Assembly (NCBI GenBank): GCA_001516055.1
Contig: LOEZ01000019.1
Location: forward strand, 186,001 to 250,000
Length of the DNA: 64,000 nucleotides
Direction of reading: 5' to 3'
DNA from: Gracilibacter sp. BRH_c7a
Lineage (GTDB): Bacteria > Bacillota > Desulfitobacteriia > Desulfitobacteriales > Syntrophobotulaceae
In this document: positions 24,601 through 51,644 of the stretch, one piece after another
Layout: every line of letters starts with the position of its first letter
How positions within the stretch are numbered: position 1 is the first letter of the stretch
The notes under the pieces: model-generated
Databases searched by the model: none
The model's input: the letters and a program-made list of their open reading frames with translations, nothing else
Told to the model about the DNA's origin: nothing
Program-made: the position numbers and the translations under genes

Positions 24601-25920
24601 ATGGCTGCTTGTAAAGAACGCTGTGAAATGGTTAACTTTTGTAGAAGTGCCCATGGTGCCAAAAAAACAATAGATAATAATCTTCTCTTTCAGAATCTTT
24701 ACGAGCTGAATTATCCTAAGATATTTCAATTTCTATATCTCAAAACAAACCATGACTGGGCAGCAGCCGAAGACTTGACTCAAGAAACTTTTACTAAGGC
24801 CTATCAACATCTTAACAGGGTTACCTATAACTGCAACATCAAGAACTGGTTATTCTCTATTGCCAGCAATACTCTAAGAGATCATTGGCGGAGATCCAAT
24901 AATCTGCACCAGGAACCTCTGGATGTTAACACAATTAATCTGCGAACCACCGAAGGTCTGCCATGCGATGACCTCATAGAAAGCGAACTCCGTCACAAGT
25001 TCCGCTATATCTTTAATACACTCCCTCCTAATTACCGTCGAGCTCTTTGCTTGCACGAGTGTGAAAGTTACTCTTATGCCCAAGCAGCTGATATCATGAA
25101 AATGAGCTTAACCACCTACACATCATTAATAAATCGCGCACGCATAAAATTAAAAGAAATTGTGATAGCCCATTTATTTAGTATAGATAACGATCAATTA
25201 TCAAAAAGTGAATGTGCTTCTATCAGTAAGTTGATAAGTTCATGGATGTCCGGGCATCAATTATGTGACGATGTTTCCGAACCCATCAAACATAATATGA
25301 GGGATTACTTTGATGACCACGCAGAACAATACAACAAATCTGTCTGCTACGACTACCACGACTTGATTGACGATCATATCCTGGGAAAATATCCCCTTAA
25401 TCAAAAGCATCTGGTGGCGGACTTCGGTATGGGAACAGGTATCTTCACCGCTAATCTAAGCCGCTATGTTCAAAAAGCCCATGGCTATGATTTTTCCGAA
25501 AGAATGTGTGCTATAGCCAGGGATAACTTCCGACGGGATGACATCAACAACGTAGAGTGTAAAAATAAGGACTTCCTGATGCTGGGAAAAGACTCTCCTC
25601 AATATGATTATGCTTATTGTATAACTGTACTACACCATTTGCCTTATCCTCAGGAGGCTGTAAATAAAATGGCTGCCACACTTAAAAGAGGAGGCTGCCT
25701 TGTAATCTCAGACCTGCACAAACATAAATGCGCCGAAATGGTCGAAGAAAGAAAAGACCTCTGGTATGGATTCACTAAAGAACAGTTTATCAAATACCTG
25801 ACGAATGCAGGTTTGAAAAATGTCTGGGCTGAGGTTCATCCTAAACTCTTCCAGGCATATCAAACCAAGTCAGGAAAAATAGCGAAAATCGCTACGATAA
25901 TAGGAGGTGGAGAAAAATGA
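24601..25920 (+). CDS. ECF-type sigma factor fused to a SAM-dependent methyltransferase
   Basis: A 439-residue two-part protein. Residues 30-98 match sigma-70 region 2 (YPKIFQFLYLKT, EDLTQETFTKAYQHL, NWLFSIASN) and 130-190 match region 4 (LPPNYRRALCLHE, YAQAADIMKMSLTTYTSLINRAR). Residues 235-410 are a class I methyltransferase with motif I VADFGMGTG (272-280) and ITVLHHLP (341-348). The N-terminus has C4-X3-C8-X5-C14, a possible metal or redox site. The RBS AAAGGAG is well placed and the reading frame is continuous, so the fusion is not a frameshift artefact. The next gene overlaps by 4 nt. By analogy with ArsR-methyltransferase fusions, the enzyme domain could tune a transcription switch; the target is unknown. 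Confidence 0.85.
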   Translation: MAACKERCEMVNFCRSAHGAKKTIDNNLLFQNLYELNYPKIFQFLYLKTNHDWAAAEDLTQETFTKAYQHLNRVTYNCNIKNWLFSIASNTLRDHWRRSNNLHQEPLDVNTINLRTTEGLPCDDLIESELRHKFRYIFNTLPPNYRRALCLHECESYSYAQAADIMKMSLTTYTSLINRARIKLKEIVIAHLFSIDNDQLSKSECASISKLISSWMSGHQLCDDVSEPIKHNMRDYFDDHAEQYNKSVCYDYHDLIDDHILGKYPLNQKHLVADFGMGTGIFTANLSRYVQKAHGYDFSERMCAIARDNFRRDDINNVECKNKDFLMLGKDSPQYDYAYCITVLHHLPYPQEAVNKMAATLKRGGCLVISDLHKHKCAEMVEERKDLWYGFTKEQFIKYLTNAGLKNVWAEVHPKLFQAYQTKSGKIAKIATIIGGGEK

Positions 25921-27416: not shown

Positions 27417-28625
27417 CTAGCGGAAAAAATCTCTTATATCAGCTTGGTAGTTTCCCAGCATTTGAAAATAAGTGCTATCTTCTTTGATACCTTTCACTGC
27501 TTCCTCAACCGTTTCATCACCTAAACTACCTTCGAAATCGACGTAAAACAGATATTCCCAAGGCTTATTCAGAATCGGTCGGGATTCTATCTTTAACATA
27601 TTAAGACCATTCGTAGCAAAGTGACTTAAGACTCTGTATAATGAGCCAGGTTCGTGGGATATAGCTACAGCCAGGCTTATCTTATCACTTTCTTCTTTTA
27701 TCTCTAGTGTTCTTCCAATAATAATAAATCTCGTATAGTTATAAGAATCATTATTAATATAGCTTCTCAAAATCGAAAGTCCATAGAGCTCCGCTGCCCT
27801 TTGACCCGCGATTGCCGCTTTAAACATAGACCCAGATTCACCGATTAGTTTAGCACTGACAGCTGTATTACTACAAGAAATAAGATTCCAATCCGGATTT
27901 GACTGTAAAAAGTTGCTGCATTGTTGCAAGGCCTGAGGATGGGAATAGACTTCCTTAATATCTCCTAGTTTTGCTCCTGGTAGAGCGAGTAAGTTATGCT
28001 CAACCTTGATGCCTTTCTCTCCAACGATATAAAAACCATAACGACATAATAAGTCATAAACGTCGGCGATCCCTCCGGTAAATGAATTCTCTAGCGGCAG
28101 AACACCGTAATCGATTTCCCCCTTTTCTAATGCTTTAAAGACATCCTCAAAACTAGGCAGATTCTTGTTAGAGATATCCTCTCCAAAATAATCCCTAAGT
28201 GCTTGTTCACTGTATGAACCGGGAATTCCTTGGAAGCCCACGGTAATATCAGGTTTCAAGTGAGCATTAGAAAGAACCTTGGGTTTTGTTCCTTCTTTAC
28301 CCTTACTGTTTATCTCGCAATTTTTCGAAGTTGCAGATTCTTTACTGAGATAATCAGCTTGAATGTTTCTGCTAATTTCCATTAAATACTTCATAAATTG
28401 CTCTGCCGGTTCTGCAAAATCTATATTTTTGATAATCTTAATATTCCTTAAGACCTTTTCTTCCCTAGACTCATCTAAGATAGTTAAGTTATTCGCTTTT
28501 TTAAAGTCAGCTATCTCTGATACCTTTTGCATGCGAGCTTCGAACAGTTCAAGCAAATCCTTATCCAGCTTATCTATCCCCTGCCTGAGGGTCTCAAGTT
28601 TTGTTTTATTTGTTAACTCATCCAT
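27417..28625 (-). CDS. pheA: Bifunctional chorismate mutase / prephenate dehydratase (P-protein)
   Basis: A 402-residue enzyme converting chorismate via prephenate to phenylpyruvate. Residues 1-90 form an AroQ-type chorismate mutase (LRQGIDKLDKDLLELFEAR), 120-300 the dehydratase (GFQGIPGSYSEQA, the NYTRF catalytic motif), and 310-395 an ACT domain with GSLYRVL and IESRP, the Phe-binding elements, so feedback inhibition by phenylalanine is expected. ATG 28625 is chosen because the chorismate mutase domain starts right after; it overlaps aroC by 13 nt. Last gene of the aromatic operon. Confidence 0.93.
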   Translation of the reverse strand: MDELTNKTKLETLRQGIDKLDKDLLELFEARMQKVSEIADFKKANNLTILDESREEKVLRNIKIIKNIDFAEPAEQFMKYLMEISRNIQADYLSKESATSKNCEINSKGKEGTKPKVLSNAHLKPDITVGFQGIPGSYSEQALRDYFGEDISNKNLPSFEDVFKALEKGEIDYGVLPLENSFTGGIADVYDLLCRYGFYIVGEKGIKVEHNLLALPGAKLGDIKEVYSHPQALQQCSNFLQSNPDWNLISCSNTAVSAKLIGESGSMFKAAIAGQRAAELYGLSILRSYINNDSYNYTRFIIIGRTLEIKEESDKISLAVAISHEPGSLYRVLSHFATNGLNMLKIESRPILNKPWEYLFYVDFEGSLGDETVEEAVKGIKEDSTYFQMLGNYQADIRDFFR

Positions 28626-29713
28626 CCTGTCCCATCCTTTTCTATCATCAAATCTAGCAGAGCCAGAGCTGCTGCAGCTTCTACCACTGGTACAGCTCTG
28701 GGAACAATACAAGGATCATGTCTTCCTTTAATACTGATCTCCACTTCTTCCATCTTATCAACATCTACAGTTCTTTGTACTTTCCCTATAGATGGTGTTG
28801 GTTTAAATGCCGCCCTGAAAACCAACGGCATCCCATTGGTTATACCCCCCAAGATTCCACCGTTATTATTGGAAGTTGTTCGAACTTGGTTATCTTCTAG
28901 GATAAATCCATCATTAGCTTCAGATCCCTTCATCTTAGTAATGTGGAATCCAGCCCCGAATTCTACGCCTTTGACTGCAGGTATGGAGAAAAGAAGATGG
29001 GCAATCTTACTCTCCGCTGAGTCAAAGAAAGGTGACCCCAAGCCGATTGGGAGATTTGCCACCCCTACTTCTATTACTCCCCCAACGGAATCTTCATCCT
29101 TCTTAGCTTCCAATATCCTATCCTTCATCTCGCCAGCCTTATCTTCAATAATTACAGGAAATTCTTTCTCAGTAAGCTCCTTAAGCAATTCAAAGTCAAC
29201 ATCTCTTAGGTCGAAAGGCTCTTCTTGCACTTCTCCGATACTTAAGATATGACTGCCGATCACAATACCCTTCTTCGCTAGAAGTTGTTTAGCGATAGCC
29301 CCCGCAAAAACCAATGGAGCCGTAAGCCTGCCTGAGAAATGTCCCCCTCCCCGATAATCATTGAATCCGGCATGTTTCCAACGAGCAGTAAAGTCGGCAT
29401 GACTTGGACGCACAATCCCTTTGATATCTTCATAGTCCAGAGACCGTTGGTCCTGATTCCAAATCATACAACATAACGGAGAACCGGTAGTCTTACTGTT
29501 AAAGTAGCCACCTACTAACTCATATTTATCTTTTTCCTGCCGAGGAGTAGCCAGACTTGTTTTGCCAGGCATTCTTCTGCCCATCTCCATGTTAATCAAA
29601 TCTAAATCCAGCTCGATTCCGGCGGGTAAGCCATTGACGACTATCCCCACTCCAGGTCCATGAGATTCTCCGAAAATGGAAAGTTCAAGACATTCACCCC
29701 ATGTTCCGCTCAT
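28613..29713 (-). CDS. aroC: Chorismate synthase
   Basis: A 366-residue FMN-dependent enzyme that turns EPSP into chorismate. Family motifs are clear: GESHGPGVG (residues 15-23), GRRMPGKTSLATPRQEKD, RPSHADFTARWKH, and the RGGGHFSGRLT loop, plus a C-terminal RHDPCIVPRAVPVVEA. The gene overlaps aroA upstream (20 nt) and pheA downstream (13 nt), a sign of tight translational coupling. The start MSGTWGECLELSIFGESHG fits the family. Confidence 0.96.
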   Translation of the reverse strand: MSGTWGECLELSIFGESHGPGVGIVVNGLPAGIELDLDLINMEMGRRMPGKTSLATPRQEKDKYELVGGYFNSKTTGSPLCCMIWNQDQRSLDYEDIKGIVRPSHADFTARWKHAGFNDYRGGGHFSGRLTAPLVFAGAIAKQLLAKKGIVIGSHILSIGEVQEEPFDLRDVDFELLKELTEKEFPVIIEDKAGEMKDRILEAKKDEDSVGGVIEVGVANLPIGLGSPFFDSAESKIAHLLFSIPAVKGVEFGAGFHITKMKGSEANDGFILEDNQVRTTSNNNGGILGGITNGMPLVFRAAFKPTPSIGKVQRTVDVDKMEEVEISIKGRHDPCIVPRAVPVVEAAAALALLDLMIEKDGTGWMS

Positions 29714-30992
29714 CTATCTTACCTCCTAATCCGATAAAGTCTTTCCAAAAATGAGGGTATGACTTATTCACTGCGTCACTCCCAGTGACCGTAACAGATC
29801 CAGTACATCGCAAAGATGCTATCGCCATAGCCATAGCTATCCGGTGGTCATTCCAGCTATCAACTATCCCGCCTGTTAATTCTTGTACGCCTTCTATTAA
29901 TAAACCATCATCAAGTTCCCGTATTTTTGCTCCTAGCTTATTTAACTCTGTGGAAATAGCTTTTAACCTATCAGACTCTTTAATGCGTAGTCTTTCGGCA
30001 TTTATTATCTTGGTTGTTCCTTCACTTAGAGCACCAAGGACAGCTAGGATAGGTACTAAGTCAGGACATTGACTGGCATCAATAATCGTTCCTTTGGTAC
30101 GTGCTCTCTTTGTTTCTATACCTTCAGAAGTTATTCGCCAATCTACGCCCATAGCTCTCATTATCTCTAGAATGGCTTTGTCTCCCTGTAGGGAATTAGA
30201 GTTTAGACCAAGAGAAGTGATTGTATCTCCAATAGTCCCTGCCACCATCCAGAAGGCCGCCTGAGAATAATCTCCTTCTATCTTATAATCCCTGTTGGAG
30301 TACTGTTGATTTCCTTTAACCGAAAATTCCTTATAATTATTGTTCTGGATGGTTACTCCAAATTGAGCCAAGACATCCATTGTCAAATCAACATACCCTT
30401 TGGATTCCATTTCCGTAGTTATGATTATCTTAGAGTCCACTTCCAGTAAAGGAAGAATAAACATGAGTCCGGTTATAAACTGAGAACTAACATTGCCTTT
30501 AAGCTTAAAAGTTCCCGGCTTTATACTTCCCCGAACAGTCAGGGGTAAAAAACCTTTATTGTTCTTATAATAAATTCCTTGTTCTTTAAAAACTTCATAA
30601 TAGGCATCCAAAGGGCGTTCGACTAATTTACCTTGCCCAGTAAAAGTCACTTCACTTCCCGTTGAACCAGCTAAAGGAATGAGAAACCTTAAAGTTGAAC
30701 CAGATTCCCGACAGTTGATAGTCTCATTTACAATCTTCAAATTTGGGTTCCCTTGAATCTCTAAAGTTACAGGTTTACTTTCTTCAACAGAATCCAGAAC
30801 TTCAACCGAAACTCCCAATGACTCCATGCCATCCATGGTAGACATAATATCTTCAGATAAAATAACGTTACTGATTCTACTAATACCCTCAGCTAAACTG
30901 GCAGAGATAACCGCTCGATGGCTGACACTTTTAGAAGGAGGTATCATCACTTTCCCTTTTAAGATTGTCGGTGTTATTTGTACTAATTTCAA
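29694..30992 (-). CDS. aroA: 5-enolpyruvylshikimate-3-phosphate synthase
   Basis: A 432-residue enzyme adding enolpyruvate to shikimate-3-phosphate. Recognised elements: PPSKSVSHRAVI (near residue 17), ESGSTLRFLIPLAG, SSQFITGLMF, and DHRIAMAMAIA near the C-terminus. The Gly in the inhibitor-contact region reads LIPLAGSTG. Fourth shikimate-pathway gene in the transcript, 67 nt after tyrA. aroB, aroE and aroK are not in the window. Confidence 0.95.
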   Translation of the reverse strand: MKLVQITPTILKGKVMIPPSKSVSHRAVISASLAEGISRISNVILSEDIMSTMDGMESLGVSVEVLDSVEESKPVTLEIQGNPNLKIVNETINCRESGSTLRFLIPLAGSTGSEVTFTGQGKLVERPLDAYYEVFKEQGIYYKNNKGFLPLTVRGSIKPGTFKLKGNVSSQFITGLMFILPLLEVDSKIIITTEMESKGYVDLTMDVLAQFGVTIQNNNYKEFSVKGNQQYSNRDYKIEGDYSQAAFWMVAGTIGDTITSLGLNSNSLQGDKAILEIMRAMGVDWRITSEGIETKRARTKGTIIDASQCPDLVPILAVLGALSEGTTKIINAERLRIKESDRLKAISTELNKLGAKIRELDDGLLIEGVQELTGGIVDSWNDHRIAMAMAIASLRCTGSVTVTGSDAVNKSYPHFWKDFIGLGGKIDERNMG

Positions 30993-31059: not shown

Positions 31060-31926
31060 CTAATCGTTATCAGTCAACCTTGCTTTTGCCTTCCCTGCAC
31101 TTCTCAGATACTCCTCTAGAGAAGCGTTATCTTCTTCTTGCAACATCTGTTTTATTTTTCCGATATTCTCTAGAAATAACTCTATCTGAGTTAAAGTATT
31201 TTCCCTGTTTTCCATCAAAAGCTTGCTCCAAAGCTCTACGTTTATCTGAGCCACCCGAGTGGCATCTTTGAAACTACCCCCGATAAACAGCCCTGTATCA
31301 TCTGATTGAGAACAATTCATTAAGGCTGCAGCGATTATGTGAGGCAATTGACTCGTTAGGGCAATAATCTCGTCATGTTTTGCCGGATCCATCCTGACAG
31401 GCTGCCTGCATCCGATTCCTTTAACCATCTCTTCTACCAAGATCAAACTTTTTTCTTGATTCGTTACTACAGGAGTAATAAGGTAGTTAGCTCCTAGAAA
31501 AATATCTGCCGAAGATTTAGAAAATCCACTGCCTTCTTTCCCTGCAAGAGGGTGGCCTCCTACGAAATCTAAATCATTTCGTAGGAACATCCTTACTTCA
31601 TTAAGAACTTTAGTTTTAATCCCTGCAGCATCTGTAATCACTGCTCCTTGCCGGAAGTTATCCATGTTATCCTTTATAAATTTACTAGTCAATTCAGGAT
31701 AAACACAGATAACTACCAAGTCCGAGCTTCTTAAAGGGATCTCACCACTCAGATATCCTTCATCAATTACTCCTGTAGATTTAGCAAGTTCTAACACTTT
31801 CTTATCTATATCTACTGCCCACAGGTTCTTGGGCGAGAGCTTTCTTATAGCCTTTGCAAAAGAACCCCCTATAAGTCCCAATCCAACAACAGTAATTTCC
31901 AAACCTCTAAAGTCTGGTTCCGCCAT
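31060..31926 (-). CDS. tyrA: Prephenate dehydrogenase
   Basis: A 288-residue NAD-dependent enzyme making 4-hydroxyphenylpyruvate for tyrosine. The Rossmann motif GLGLIGGSFAKAIR is at about residues 16-29. GGHPLAGKEGSGF and the helical TSQLPHIIAAAL segment are family hallmarks. No C-terminal ACT domain is visible, so feedback control by tyrosine would have to act elsewhere. It follows aroF by 20 nt. Confidence 0.94.
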   Translation of the reverse strand: MAEPDFRGLEITVVGLGLIGGSFAKAIRKLSPKNLWAVDIDKKVLELAKSTGVIDEGYLSGEIPLRSSDLVVICVYPELTSKFIKDNMDNFRQGAVITDAAGIKTKVLNEVRMFLRNDLDFVGGHPLAGKEGSGFSKSSADIFLGANYLITPVVTNQEKSLILVEEMVKGIGCRQPVRMDPAKHDEIIALTSQLPHIIAAALMNCSQSDDTGLFIGGSFKDATRVAQINVELWSKLLMENRENTLTQIELFLENIGKIKQMLQEEDNASLEEYLRSAGKAKARLTDND

Positions 31927-31946: not shown

Positions 31947-32963
31947 CTAATGCATTACTTTATTCTGAATAACAGCCAATTGTTTGAGATTCTCCATCAG
32001 TTCACTGAACCTTTCAGGTTTAATGGATTGCTGACCATCGCATTTAGCATTAACAGGATCGTTGTGCACTTCAATCATCACACCATCAGCTCCCACCACT
32101 AAGGCCGCTTTGGCCATAGGTTCGACCAACCACCATAAACCAGAAGCATGACTAGGGTCAACAATTACAGGCAAATGACTAAGTTTTTTAATAACCGGAA
32201 TAGCCGAGAGATCAAGAGTGTTACGGGTGTAGTTTTCGAAAGTTCTGATTCCGCGTTCACATAAGATAACATTTTTATTTCCGGCAGCGACTACATATTC
32301 GGCTGCCATCAATAATTCCTCAATCGTGGCCGACAATCCTCTTTTCAGAAGTATTGGCTTATTAGTTTGACCGATTTCTTTGAGTAGTTCAAAGTTTTGC
32401 ATATTTCTAGCACCGATTTGAATAACATCTACATTTTCGATGAAAGTATCCAAATGGGCAGTAGACATAAGTTCTGTTACAATGGGAAGTCCTGTTTTCT
32501 CACTTGCAATCTTTAGCAAATCAAGACCCTCTTCTCTCATCCCCTGGAAACTGTAAGGCGAGGATCTAGGTTTGAATGCTCCTCCACGAAGAAAACCAGC
32601 TCCTGCTTTCTTAACATCTTCAGCTATGCCTACTATCTGCTCTTCACTTTCTACTGAGCAGGGACCGGCGATAACTGCGAAACTCCCACCGCCGATAGTC
32701 TGTCCTTTGACAGTGATAGCTGTGTCATCAGGGTGAAAAAGGCGATTGACCATTTTGTACGGTTCTTGAACACGGATTAATTTCTCTACATTAGGGTTCG
32801 CTTTAAGCGAATCAGGGTCAATATTGCTCGTCTCACCAACTAATCCCATGATGTGATAGTTCACTCCTTTCGATTCATGAATTTGACAACCTAACATCAA
32901 AACTCTGTTTCTGATCTCTTCGATTCCCTTTTCCGGTGTCTGGGTTTTTAAAACGATAATCAT
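31947..32963 (-). CDS. aroF: 3-deoxy-7-phosphoheptulonate (DAHP) synthase, type I beta with N-terminal regulatory domain
   Basis: A 338-residue first enzyme of the shikimate pathway, joining PEP and erythrose-4-phosphate. Residues 1-65 resemble the ferredoxin-like regulatory domain seen in Thermotoga-type enzymes. The barrel has AGPCSVESEEQ (about 90-100), RGGAFKPRSSPYSFQG and the late DPSHASG metal/substrate motif. First structural gene of the operon, preceded by AGGAGGG and by an attenuator with a Phe/Tyr leader peptide. Confidence 0.95.
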   Translation of the reverse strand: MIIVLKTQTPEKGIEEIRNRVLMLGCQIHESKGVNYHIMGLVGETSNIDPDSLKANPNVEKLIRVQEPYKMVNRLFHPDDTAITVKGQTIGGGSFAVIAGPCSVESEEQIVGIAEDVKKAGAGFLRGGAFKPRSSPYSFQGMREEGLDLLKIASEKTGLPIVTELMSTAHLDTFIENVDVIQIGARNMQNFELLKEIGQTNKPILLKRGLSATIEELLMAAEYVVAAGNKNVILCERGIRTFENYTRNTLDLSAIPVIKKLSHLPVIVDPSHASGLWWLVEPMAKAALVVGADGVMIEVHNDPVNAKCDGQQSIKPERFSELMENLKQLAVIQNKVMH

Positions 32964-32989
32964 AACGTAGCCCTCCTAAATTTTTTATT

Positions 32990-33025
32990 AAAAAAGAAGG
33001 CTCATTTTTATCTAATGAGCCTTCT
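32990..33025 (-). terminator. Attenuator terminator upstream of aroF
   Basis: On the minus strand AGAAGGCTCATT (33025-33014) pairs with AATGAGCCTTCT (33006-32995), a perfect 12-bp stem with a 7-nt loop, followed by TTTTTT. It lies between the leader peptide and aroF, so it must be read through for operon expression. ATCTAATGAG inside the leader ORF (about 33105-33096) is complementary to CTCATTAGAT in this terminator and can form an antiterminator. Confidence 0.85.
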
Positions 33026-33064
33026 TAGGGGTTTCATTTATATTTTAGTTCTTGGAGAGATTAT

Positions 33065-33241
33065 TTATTCTATCAGGCAAAATCTCCCGTGAAACTCATT
33101 AGATGTGAGAGCAAATATTCTTTTGTAAAACAAGCAAAAAAAGCCGATGCTAAAATAAAAATAATAGCATAGGCTAAAGTTGGTAAAGTCGAAGTTGTTA
33201 ATTTGTTTTACAGGTCTCTGCACACGAATATGGGATTTCAT
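33065..33241 (-). CDS. Phe/Tyr-rich leader peptide of the aromatic operon
   Basis: A 58-codon ORF directly upstream of the aroF attenuator, starting MKSHIRVQRP. Thirteen of residues 17-43 are Phe or Tyr, with the densest run CYYFYF at 25-30 and GFFCLFY at 33-39. GGAG lies 8 nt before the ATG, and a TATAAT -10 box is at 33320-33325, which would give a leader of about 70 nt before the ATG. The arrangement (promoter, RBS, regulatory codons, antiterminator, terminator) is that of ribosome-mediated transcription attenuation: starvation for charged tRNA-Phe or tRNA-Tyr stalls the ribosome and lets the antiterminator form. No T-box motif is seen. The peptide itself probably has no function. Confidence 0.82.
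   Translation of the reverse strand: MKSHIRVQRPVKQINNFDFTNFSLCYYFYFSIGFFCLFYKRIFALTSNEFHGRFCLIE
33135..33175 (-). terminator. Second terminator-like hairpin inside the leader ORF
   Basis: AGCCTATGCTA (33175-33165) pairs with TAGCATCGGCT (33152-33142) except for one mismatch, followed by a T run. The loop contains the Tyr/Phe codon run. Formation would be prevented by a translating ribosome. Confidence 0.55.
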
Positions 33242-33360
33242 AATTGATTCTCCAATAGTAATTTGATTTTGCTAATTATACTTCATGATTTTATTACTGT
33301 CAATACACAATATTGCTATATTATAGTAAGTGCCTCTAATTTTGTTACACAAATTCCCAA

Positions 33361-33501
33361 TTAGTCTAGTTTTTTCCCGACAGTTTGTTTAATCTCTTCA
33401 TCAGTAATATTTTCATACTTTTTTTTCATTCCTCTTGATCTTTGGACGAAAATATATCCTAAAAGTATTACAGCCAGAATGCCAAAAAAAAGGTACTTCA
33501 T
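33361..33501 (-). CDS. 46-residue single-helix membrane protein
   Basis: A short ORF: an N-terminal membrane helix (KYLFFGILAVILLGYIFVQ, residues 2-20), then a basic and charged tail (RSRGMKKKYE...). GGAG lies 9 nt before the ATG at 33501. It sits between a DUF6765-like gene and the aromatic operon promoter, in the same orientation. No family is recognised. The RBS and the sensible membrane topology support it being real. Confidence 0.55.
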   Translation of the reverse strand: MKYLFFGILAVILLGYIFVQRSRGMKKKYENITDEEIKQTVGKKLD

Positions 33502-33645
33502 CAATCACCGCTCCAAAATCATTAATAAGTTTATAGTCAAGTAAATATACCAACCGGATACAATAACCGAATTATACCACCTCTTCGTGCCTTGTTCAAA
33601 CAAACCTTTTTGTTATCCCTGCCTTCTAGACCATAGTTATCTCTT

Positions 33646-34728
33646 CTAGCCCACAGTTATCCCTAACTCCGGCAACAGACAATGTATAACTAAGAACTTA
33701 TGCTCAGCCGCTGCCTGCATAAACTTAACCCAGTGGGATTCTTCGAATCCTGGTTTTTTTCTAAATACATTGTAATTATACTGTTTATGATTGTTATTCC
33801 TGGTTTTCGAGACCTTAGAAGCTTCTACCGCCTCCTTAAACCAAACGTTATCATCGTAAAATAAAGTCCCATCTCTTTCGTCGAAATCGCCAAACTCAAA
33901 ATAGTTATTTTTAATTGATTTAAGCCAATTCTTATACCTTTCTTCCTTAGAGCCTCTATAAGATAACAACTGACGAAACTTATCTTCAAAATCATCAAAC
34001 GGTCTACAGCGGACTTTAGATTTTAAAGCAGGATTTTTAGATAAATAATAAACAAGGTACTCATGAACTTTTCTGACAGCAGGTAGATATCTATCTTCCA
34101 AATTATTTACTTTGAATACCTTACTTCCACGAGAATAGCTCCACTGAGCATACGGAATATCAGGATTTTCCAAAGCCTCAGTATGTCCGATTGCTATGCT
34201 GTCCGACGACCATCGATCCCATAATTTTACTGACAAACGTCTTCCTGTATCCTCTATAAATCCTCTTTCATTTACACCGGTTAACAACTGGATCTCATTA
34301 TGGATGTCATAGATTCCTTTAAAATCTGAGTGAGAATAGGCATCCGCCAAATAATGGAGACCTATACCAAGTCGATACAAAGAGTGCGGCCAAGAGGAAG
34401 TACGAACATCTTCTAATAAAAGCCCTAATACCTTGGAGTTCGGGGCTGTCATCATAACCTCAGCATCTTGGCTATCTCCTCTCGGAGGAAAGTGAAAAGG
34501 TATCCAAACATCTAAAGCATCATTGATATCTATGGTTCGAGGTGTAAGCATACGGTGAGCTGTCATAGTCTGCTTGAAAACACCGCCATTCTTAAATTTC
34601 AAGGCATGCCGGTGAACAGCATCATCAACAAACTGGGAAGAATAGGCAATAATCTCAGCATATTCGCTTTTTATGCCCACTAGACGACATAACACATAGA
34701 TAGCAGTATGATGAAGGTCTATTTGCAT
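33646..34728 (-). CDS. DUF6765-like protein, unknown function
   Basis: A 360-residue soluble protein with many conserved-looking His and Asp residues: DLHHTAIYVL (residues 3-13), DDAVHRHAL, GIGLHYLADAYSHSDFKG (about 122-140). The pattern HYLADAYSHSDF recalls zinc-dependent phospholipase C/S1-P1 nuclease-type helical proteins, and the whole resembles DUF6765. A metal-dependent hydrolase fold is a guess. No signal peptide. Flanked upstream by a divergent two-component system. Confidence 0.65.
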   Translation of the reverse strand: MQIDLHHTAIYVLCRLVGIKSEYAEIIAYSSQFVDDAVHRHALKFKNGGVFKQTMTAHRMLTPRTIDINDALDVWIPFHFPPRGDSQDAEVMMTAPNSKVLGLLLEDVRTSSWPHSLYRLGIGLHYLADAYSHSDFKGIYDIHNEIQLLTGVNERGFIEDTGRRLSVKLWDRWSSDSIAIGHTEALENPDIPYAQWSYSRGSKVFKVNNLEDRYLPAVRKVHEYLVYYLSKNPALKSKVRCRPFDDFEDKFRQLLSYRGSKEERYKNWLKSIKNNYFEFGDFDERDGTLFYDDNVWFKEAVEASKVSKTRNNNHKQYNYNVFRKKPGFEESHWVKFMQAAAEHKFLVIHCLLPELGITVG

Positions 34729-51222: not shown

Positions 51223-51294
51223 GAAAAGATAGCACATTAAATACATGGGTATTCAAATATAGAATAAACTATATAATCAACCATACAATCAAAA

Positions 51295-51445
51295 AACACT
51301 TTCTTTCCACGCCTACGAGGTTAGCTGTCGGATTCGGGCTGAAAAATAGCCCTACCTTCGAGATTCTCGTACTCGCATGAGCACTGAATCTCTAGTGGAT
51401 TCACCCCAAAGATTTGGGTCCCCCGCTTCTTGTTTGCACTGTTTG
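51295..51445 (-). promoter_or_regulatory. Cyclic di-AMP riboswitch (ydaO/yuaA class)
   Basis: The minus-strand leader contains the conserved blocks of this class in order: GCGGGGGACCCA, TTTGGGGTGAAT, a variable arm, then CCCGAATCCGACAGCTAACC followed by TCGTAGGCG. These fit the ydaO consensus closely. A terminator follows and then the amino acid transporter operon. In B. subtilis and relatives c-di-AMP binding switches such operons off, matching roles in osmolyte and amino acid uptake. Boundaries are approximate. Confidence 0.92.
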
Positions 51446-51644
51446 TGAAAACAACAGGACAAGTAATTAGGCGATCTAATAAACAATAAATATTCAATTA
51501 ACAATAATTAATGTTAACACTATAAGTATTATATGTAAAGAATCGCATATCTGCTTATTCTTACATATACAGCGATTAGGTATTATTACAATACATATAC
51601 TTACCTATCCAACAAAATGCATCAGCTTACAAAGTATGTTTCCA

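Follow-up and report, generated by a model that had tools for sequence, protein, structure and literature searches.

A probable Phe/Tyr leader-peptide attenuator upstream of the aroF operon of Gracilibacter sp. BRH_c7a, with apparent counterparts at related aroF loci

Control of biosynthetic genes by ribosome stalling is best known from enteric bacteria, and T-boxes and TRAP are usually held responsible for controlling aromatic amino acid genes in Firmicutes. The enterobacterial pheA leader (Rfam RF01859, Phe_leader) combines a Phe-rich leader peptide, an antiterminator and a terminator ahead of a Phe biosynthesis gene; the E. coli leader peptide pheL is short and Phe-only. T-box leaders (RF00230) also read tRNA charging and control amino acid genes in Firmicutes, but they bind the tRNA directly and have no need of a leader ORF. 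Ribosome-mediated attenuation is likewise represented in Firmicutes by the leader-peptide attenuators of hisS/hisZ in Bacilli (PMC2965389), of ilv-leu in Listeria, where the peptide has 13 aa (PMC5864092), and of ilv in Staphylococcus aureus (PMC5794164), which concern His in the first case and branched-chain amino acids in the other two. The nearest precedent in the literature searched is uORFC-13-1 of Acholeplasma, a putative uORF with at least one Phe and a terminator that lies immediately before aroF; it has been predicted only, is confined to Acholeplasma and unassigned environmental sequences, and is described with no statement of Tyr (PMC8632094). Compared by description, it shares with the locus reported here a Phe-codon uORF and a terminator right before aroF, predicted and outside Proteobacteria. 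A search of open-licence papers found none that describes a Phe/Tyr leader in Clostridia.

The 64-kb window analysed here, i.e. the whole stretch of Gracilibacter sp. BRH_c7a DNA that was examined, has the anatomy of an attenuator upstream of aroF: a short ORF with start, RBS and stop, and a terminator between this ORF and aroF. The elements, in the direction of transcription, are:

33275-33303 (-): sigma-70 promoter TTGACA-17-TATAAT, a 12/12 match to the consensus
near 33268 (-): probable 5' end of the leader RNA, placed from the promoter, about 27 nt 5' of the leader ORF
33249-33255 (-): Shine-Dalgarno-like TTGGAGA of the leader ORF, from the sequence
33065-33241 (-): leader peptide ORF of 58 codons plus stop, with ATG start, MKSHIRVQRPVKQINNFDFTNFSLCYYFYFSIGFFCLFYKRIFALTSNEFHGRFCLIE; homologues in the own family
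33113-33193 (-): putative regulatory codon run, codons 17-43, with 13 Phe/Tyr codons (9 Phe, 4 Tyr), from the sequence
33095-33104 (-): antiterminator 5' arm ATCTAATGAG, within the ORF; 8 core pairs with the terminator arm in 13/13 genomes
33010-33019 (-): shared arm CTCATTAGAT, the 3' arm of the antiterminator, overlapping the 5' arm and loop of the terminator; from sequence and pairing
32994-33026 (-): intrinsic terminator, a 13-bp stem followed by a T-run; -17.7 kcal/mol, both-sided changes in 2 pairs
32971-32977 (-): Shine-Dalgarno AGGAGGG of aroF, a strong RBS, from the sequence

Much of this had been anticipated in a preliminary description of the same DNA. The 58-codon ORF with its own RBS is present, as is the reported -10 box, which turns out to belong to a complete consensus promoter, and the claimed density of 13 Phe/Tyr codons within 27 is found in no other stretch of the window in any of the six frames. 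A terminator before aroF also stands, with 13 pairs in its stem and not the 12 first given. The proposed antiterminator pairing is exact: ATCTAATGAG is the perfect reverse complement of CTCATTAGAT over 10 nt, the arms of antiterminator and terminator exclude each other, and complementarity is retained in all 13 genomes. Transcription from a start downstream of the leader, which had been named as a finding that would refute the proposal, appears unlikely given the perfect promoter 5' of the ORF, as no other consensus promoter was found on the same strand between it and aroF. Folded in its complete length, the leader RNA is more stable than its own shuffles (z -3.45). The Pfam search gave no family for the leader peptide, and the Rfam search gave none at or near gathering score for the leader and no RF00230 match. 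With the RF01859 covariance model the leader scores 15.7 against a cut-off of 55 bits and is not a member; it differs from E. coli pheL in having 58 codons, both Phe and Tyr, and an antiterminator arm inside the ORF, 5' of the stop codon. The pattern CTAATGAG-N55-85-CTCATTAG occurs at a single site on both strands of the own genome, giving no sign of paralogous switch copies, and relatives that possess it do so only at aroF, except for one uncharacterised site in G006. Upstream, between a DUF6765 gene (33646-34728) and the leader promoter, lies a 47-aa ORF with a hydrophobic N-terminus (33361-33504, minus strand), possibly encoding a small membrane protein.

The genes that follow the leader are:

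31947-32963 (-): aroF, DAHP synthase; NF006421/TIGR01361 above cut-off
31060-31926 (-): tyrA, prephenate dehydrogenase; NCBIfam prephenate dehydrogenase models, matches below the curated cut-offs
29694-30992 (-): aroA, EPSP synthase; TIGR01356 above cut-off
28613-29713 (-): aroC, chorismate synthase; TIGR00033 above cut-off
27417-28712 (-): pheA, chorismate mutase plus prephenate dehydratase; NF008865 above cut-off, with chorismate mutase domain matches

For pheA, 28712 is the first possible start and the true start probably lies further in. NCBIfam confirms the gene order aroF-tyrA-aroA-aroC-pheA given earlier, with the reservation on tyrA. As the five genes share one orientation and are spaced by short gaps or overlap, their content implies an operon that makes both phenylalanine and tyrosine, in keeping with the earlier remark that a run of both Phe and Tyr codons suits a shared operon.

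Very probably the leader acts as a ribosome-mediated transcription attenuator, in which translation of the leader peptide serves to sense charged tRNA-Phe and tRNA-Tyr. Transcription would begin some 27 nt 5' of the leader ORF. When Phe- or Tyr-tRNA is scarce, a ribosome would stall within codons 17-43 and cover or separate the strands of the enclosing helices, leaving the downstream arm ATCTAATGAG (core CTAATGAG) free; this arm would pair with the emerging CTCATTAGAT, block the terminator and allow aroF-tyrA-aroA-aroC-pheA to be transcribed. With both tRNAs charged, the ribosome would pass the arm and reach the stop codon 27 nt further on. The ribosome would then stand between the arm and its partner, or the arm would be taken up in refolded upstream helices, and the terminator (33026-32994) would form. 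We infer from this arrangement the stalling itself, the choice of fold by ribosome position and the response to both amino acids; in the off state, separation of arm and partner by the non-stalled ribosome, aided by refolding of the upstream helices, may be what permits the terminator. The distance from arm to stop codon is 24-30 nt in 11/13 genomes, the window sequence having 27 nt.

Folding of the window sequence with a ribosome stalled at codons 17-43 gives an antiterminator probability of 0.97-0.99 before the terminator 3' arm emerges, and in relatives the corresponding values are mostly high for the later codons. For the window sequence, the antiterminator is still predicted in the ribosome-free RNA (0.98), which speaks against the simple view that concealment of the antiterminator arm by the upstream helices is enough; on their own these helices fail to account for the off state. 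Across the family the ribosome-free probability is scattered from 0 to 1, with several relatives at 0.00-0.19, and the upstream helices are conserved. An untranslated leader may therefore be off, as in enteric attenuators, or on. At full-length equilibrium the terminator is predicted to be favoured in most genomes, and the switch must therefore be kinetic. The helices concerned, all within the ORF, are:

33216-33225 (-): 5' strand of the outer helix, GTGTGCAGAG, 5' of the codon run; MFE fold
33103-33111 (-): 3' strand of the outer helix, CTCTCACAT, adjoining the antiterminator arm; MFE fold
33203-33211 (-): 5' strand of the inner helix P0, GTAAAACAA; compensatory changes to GTAGAACAA/TTGTTCTAC, 95.6-100% of cells paired
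33125-33133 (-): 3' strand of the inner helix P0, TTGTTTTAC; same basis
33165-33175 (-): 5' strand of hairpin H1, AGCCTATGCTA, with Tyr/Phe codons in the loop; both-sided changes
33142-33152 (-): 3' strand of hairpin H1, TAGCATCGGCT; same basis

An alignment of 13 sequences was used to assess these helices. The inner helix, H1 and the terminator together show both-sided changes in 12 cells, against a mean of 4.9 in shuffled alignments that keep relatedness (0/500 shuffles as high). Since such shuffles do not remove relatedness, more weight attaches to two other results: sliding the partner strand lowers helix pairing from 94% to 41-56%, and H1 is also kept in leaders of Clostridium, Lachnospiraceae and Negativicutes, where 0/2000 partner swaps pair as well. 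The outer helix keeps AAGAG/CTCTT in relatives, with 80.8% of cells paired and no both-sided changes, and its register is shifted in the Gracilibacter sp. BRH_c7a genome. The antiterminator yields no covariation because it is almost invariant within the family.

Conservation of the codon run with drifting flanks had been set as a test of the leader, and this is what the own family displays. A homologous leader lies 5' of aroF in 12 relatives (L001 and L086 being one genome), and a Phe/Tyr run with intact arms is also present in a further genome, G009. The twelve Phe/Tyr positions 5' of the antiterminator arm (codons 17-39) carry Phe or Tyr in 75-100% of the 12 relatives, 11 of them in at least 92%, and the remaining leader residues have a mean identity of 44%. 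Phe codon 43, just 5' of the arm, is kept in 8% of these relatives, and the two Phe codons in or 3' of the arm in 42% and 0%. All 13 codons of the run lie at or before the last position at which a stall would be permissive, and Phe/Tyr codons beyond it show no conservation. The flanks and both termini drift, and length, run length, spacing and stop position vary among relatives; such non-aromatic residues as are conserved (Ser-x-Gly, Asn-Glu) fall mostly within helix strands, namely H1 and the arm CTAATGAG. This pattern matches what codon-based sensing would predict, unlike a conserved small protein.

The same data bear on the other ways in which the ORF could be read. The conserved motif of many leaders and the length of the ORF would suit an arrest switch of the TnaC kind, with the nascent peptide in the exit tunnel sensing free Phe or Tyr and not charged tRNA. 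We consider this very unlikely: there is no invariant non-aromatic pattern outside the RNA helices, the variable run length, spacing and stop position argue against it, and the sign would be wrong for a biosynthetic operon, as TnaC-type arrest needs an excess of the amino acid for switching on. That the ORF encodes a functional small membrane-like protein, with its sequence rather than its codons under selection, seems extremely improbable, although the peptide is aromatic and hydrophobic and a motif FYFS(A/T)GYF recurs in far relatives. The hairpin has the recurrent S-A/T-G codons as its 3' strand, and coupled both-sided changes in it lead to amino acid replacements, for example Trp for Cys accompanied by Thr for Ser. 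Phe and Tyr substitute for each other and are lost 3' of the antiterminator arm, the peptide varies in length, and its termini drift. A T-box or an RNA-binding-protein (TRAP-like) attenuator beside an accidental ORF can practically be dismissed, despite the T-boxes common in the own genome and found at the same place before aroF at four other loci, given the conserved codon run and the lack of any Rfam hit on this leader that reaches or approaches the gathering score. Attenuation at a Phe/Tyr leader, as first proposed, is supported by codon conservation and by arm complementarity across the family.

To see how far such leaders extend, we compared 106 aroF upstream regions (the 80 nearest named genome loci plus 30 from the own order, with short ones excluded). 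A Phe/Tyr run score of at least 10 is reached in 59/106 regions, compared with 3 antisense and 0.9% of shuffles; at a score of at least 8 the number is 72/106, of which at least one is false, and about 5% of shuffles pass. The false case is L006, which was first scored as a leader locus and carries a T-box. Both Phe and Tyr are present in 68/72 runs. A terminator of -10 kcal/mol or better lies between run and aroF in 64 of the 72 leaders, versus 13/216 shuffles (6%); among aroF loci without a leader a terminator is found in 20/34. In 30 of the 64 cases the terminator 5' arm has a partner between run and terminator at p up to 0.05, where about 3 would be expected. Closely similar terminators, with GGCTCATT or GACTCATT as part of the 5' arm, occur in Clostridium magnum, C. 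tyrobutyricum, C. oryzae and C. thailandense, which also have an in-ORF ATGAGT arm; their single-locus p-values for arm complementarity are not significant. Where flanks are long, the leader loci mostly have tyrA, aroA, aroC or pheA downstream.

The arrangement met most often among the nearest aroF operons is a putative leader peptide, and ribosome-stalling control of Phe/Tyr genes appears to be common in Clostridia, a group thought to rely on T-boxes. The view of the leader as an apparently widespread ribosome-mediated attenuator that would work like the classical type is well supported by these comparisons. On the AroF tree, leader presence requires about 25 changes against 29.5 in shuffles, i.e. 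it is weakly clustered and patchily detected, and at more remote aroF copies from the order and class no convincing Phe/Tyr leader was seen. The own-family aroF is nearer to Clostridium than are most aroF copies of the own order; as support for the joining branches is only 83-89, horizontal transfer of aroF is not claimed. A bolder reading, possible but doubtful, is that these leaders form an ancient family of Clostridial attenuators with a distinct RNA architecture, comprising a conserved hairpin with Tyr/Phe codons in its loop, a covarying enclosing helix and an in-ORF antiterminator arm at a near-fixed distance before the stop. A ribosome past the arm would then set the off state, and an untranslated leader would read through. 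In this the family would differ from E. coli trp, whose untranslated leader terminates.

Several aroF regions have features of their own. In Brachyspira (Spirochaetota), L059 and L066 also have a short Tyr/Phe-rich ORF before aroF (MKGNLFSNNFKSIYAYYFFYYGV in L059), with no clear terminator 3' of it in L059. L087 and L093, from two genera, carry a second hairpin insert (CTATC.GAAAG ... CTTTCTGATAG) between terminator and aroF that resembles a dispersed repeat, L082 is longer by about 150 bases in the same interval, and matches to group II intron D1-D4 lie near aroF in G004 (L093:41-337). Some 420-255 nt 5' of a more distant aroF copy (L145, genome G028), 6 Trp codons within 20 positions may mark a Trp leader peptide.

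The earlier statement that Firmicutes mostly use T-boxes for such genes holds for other loci of the own genome and for a small number of aroF relatives, and does not hold for the nearest aroF operons. In the own genome 13 T-box matches, of which six exceed the Rfam cut-off, precede genes that include pheS, trpE, trpB and that of a TrpX transporter protein; this genome uses T-boxes for pheS, trpE and trpB yet apparently ribosome stalling for its Phe/Tyr operon. A T-box stands directly 5' of aroF at L006, L023, L072 and L106, and also at L134 of the own order. In related bacteria the same genes are thus served by T-boxes or by leaders, and because either can occupy the same place at related aroF loci, exchange between T-box and leader peptide becomes directly traceable. 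Most gene callers would pass over leaders of this length, and Rfam has no family for them, so annotation of this regulation is probably missing from many Clostridia, probably including gut species and industrial Clostridium.

Among other observations, L117 and L118 (contigs C16 and C49 of G000) carry an identical T-box plus proC, which could be an assembly duplication or a recent repeat. The window also contains a c-di-AMP (ydaO/yuaA) riboswitch at 51294-51483 on the minus strand (86 bits) and, at 24601-25920 on the plus strand, a single ORF that joins sigma-70 regions 2 and 4 (ECF-type sigma factor) to a SAM-methyltransferase domain, an unusual fusion.
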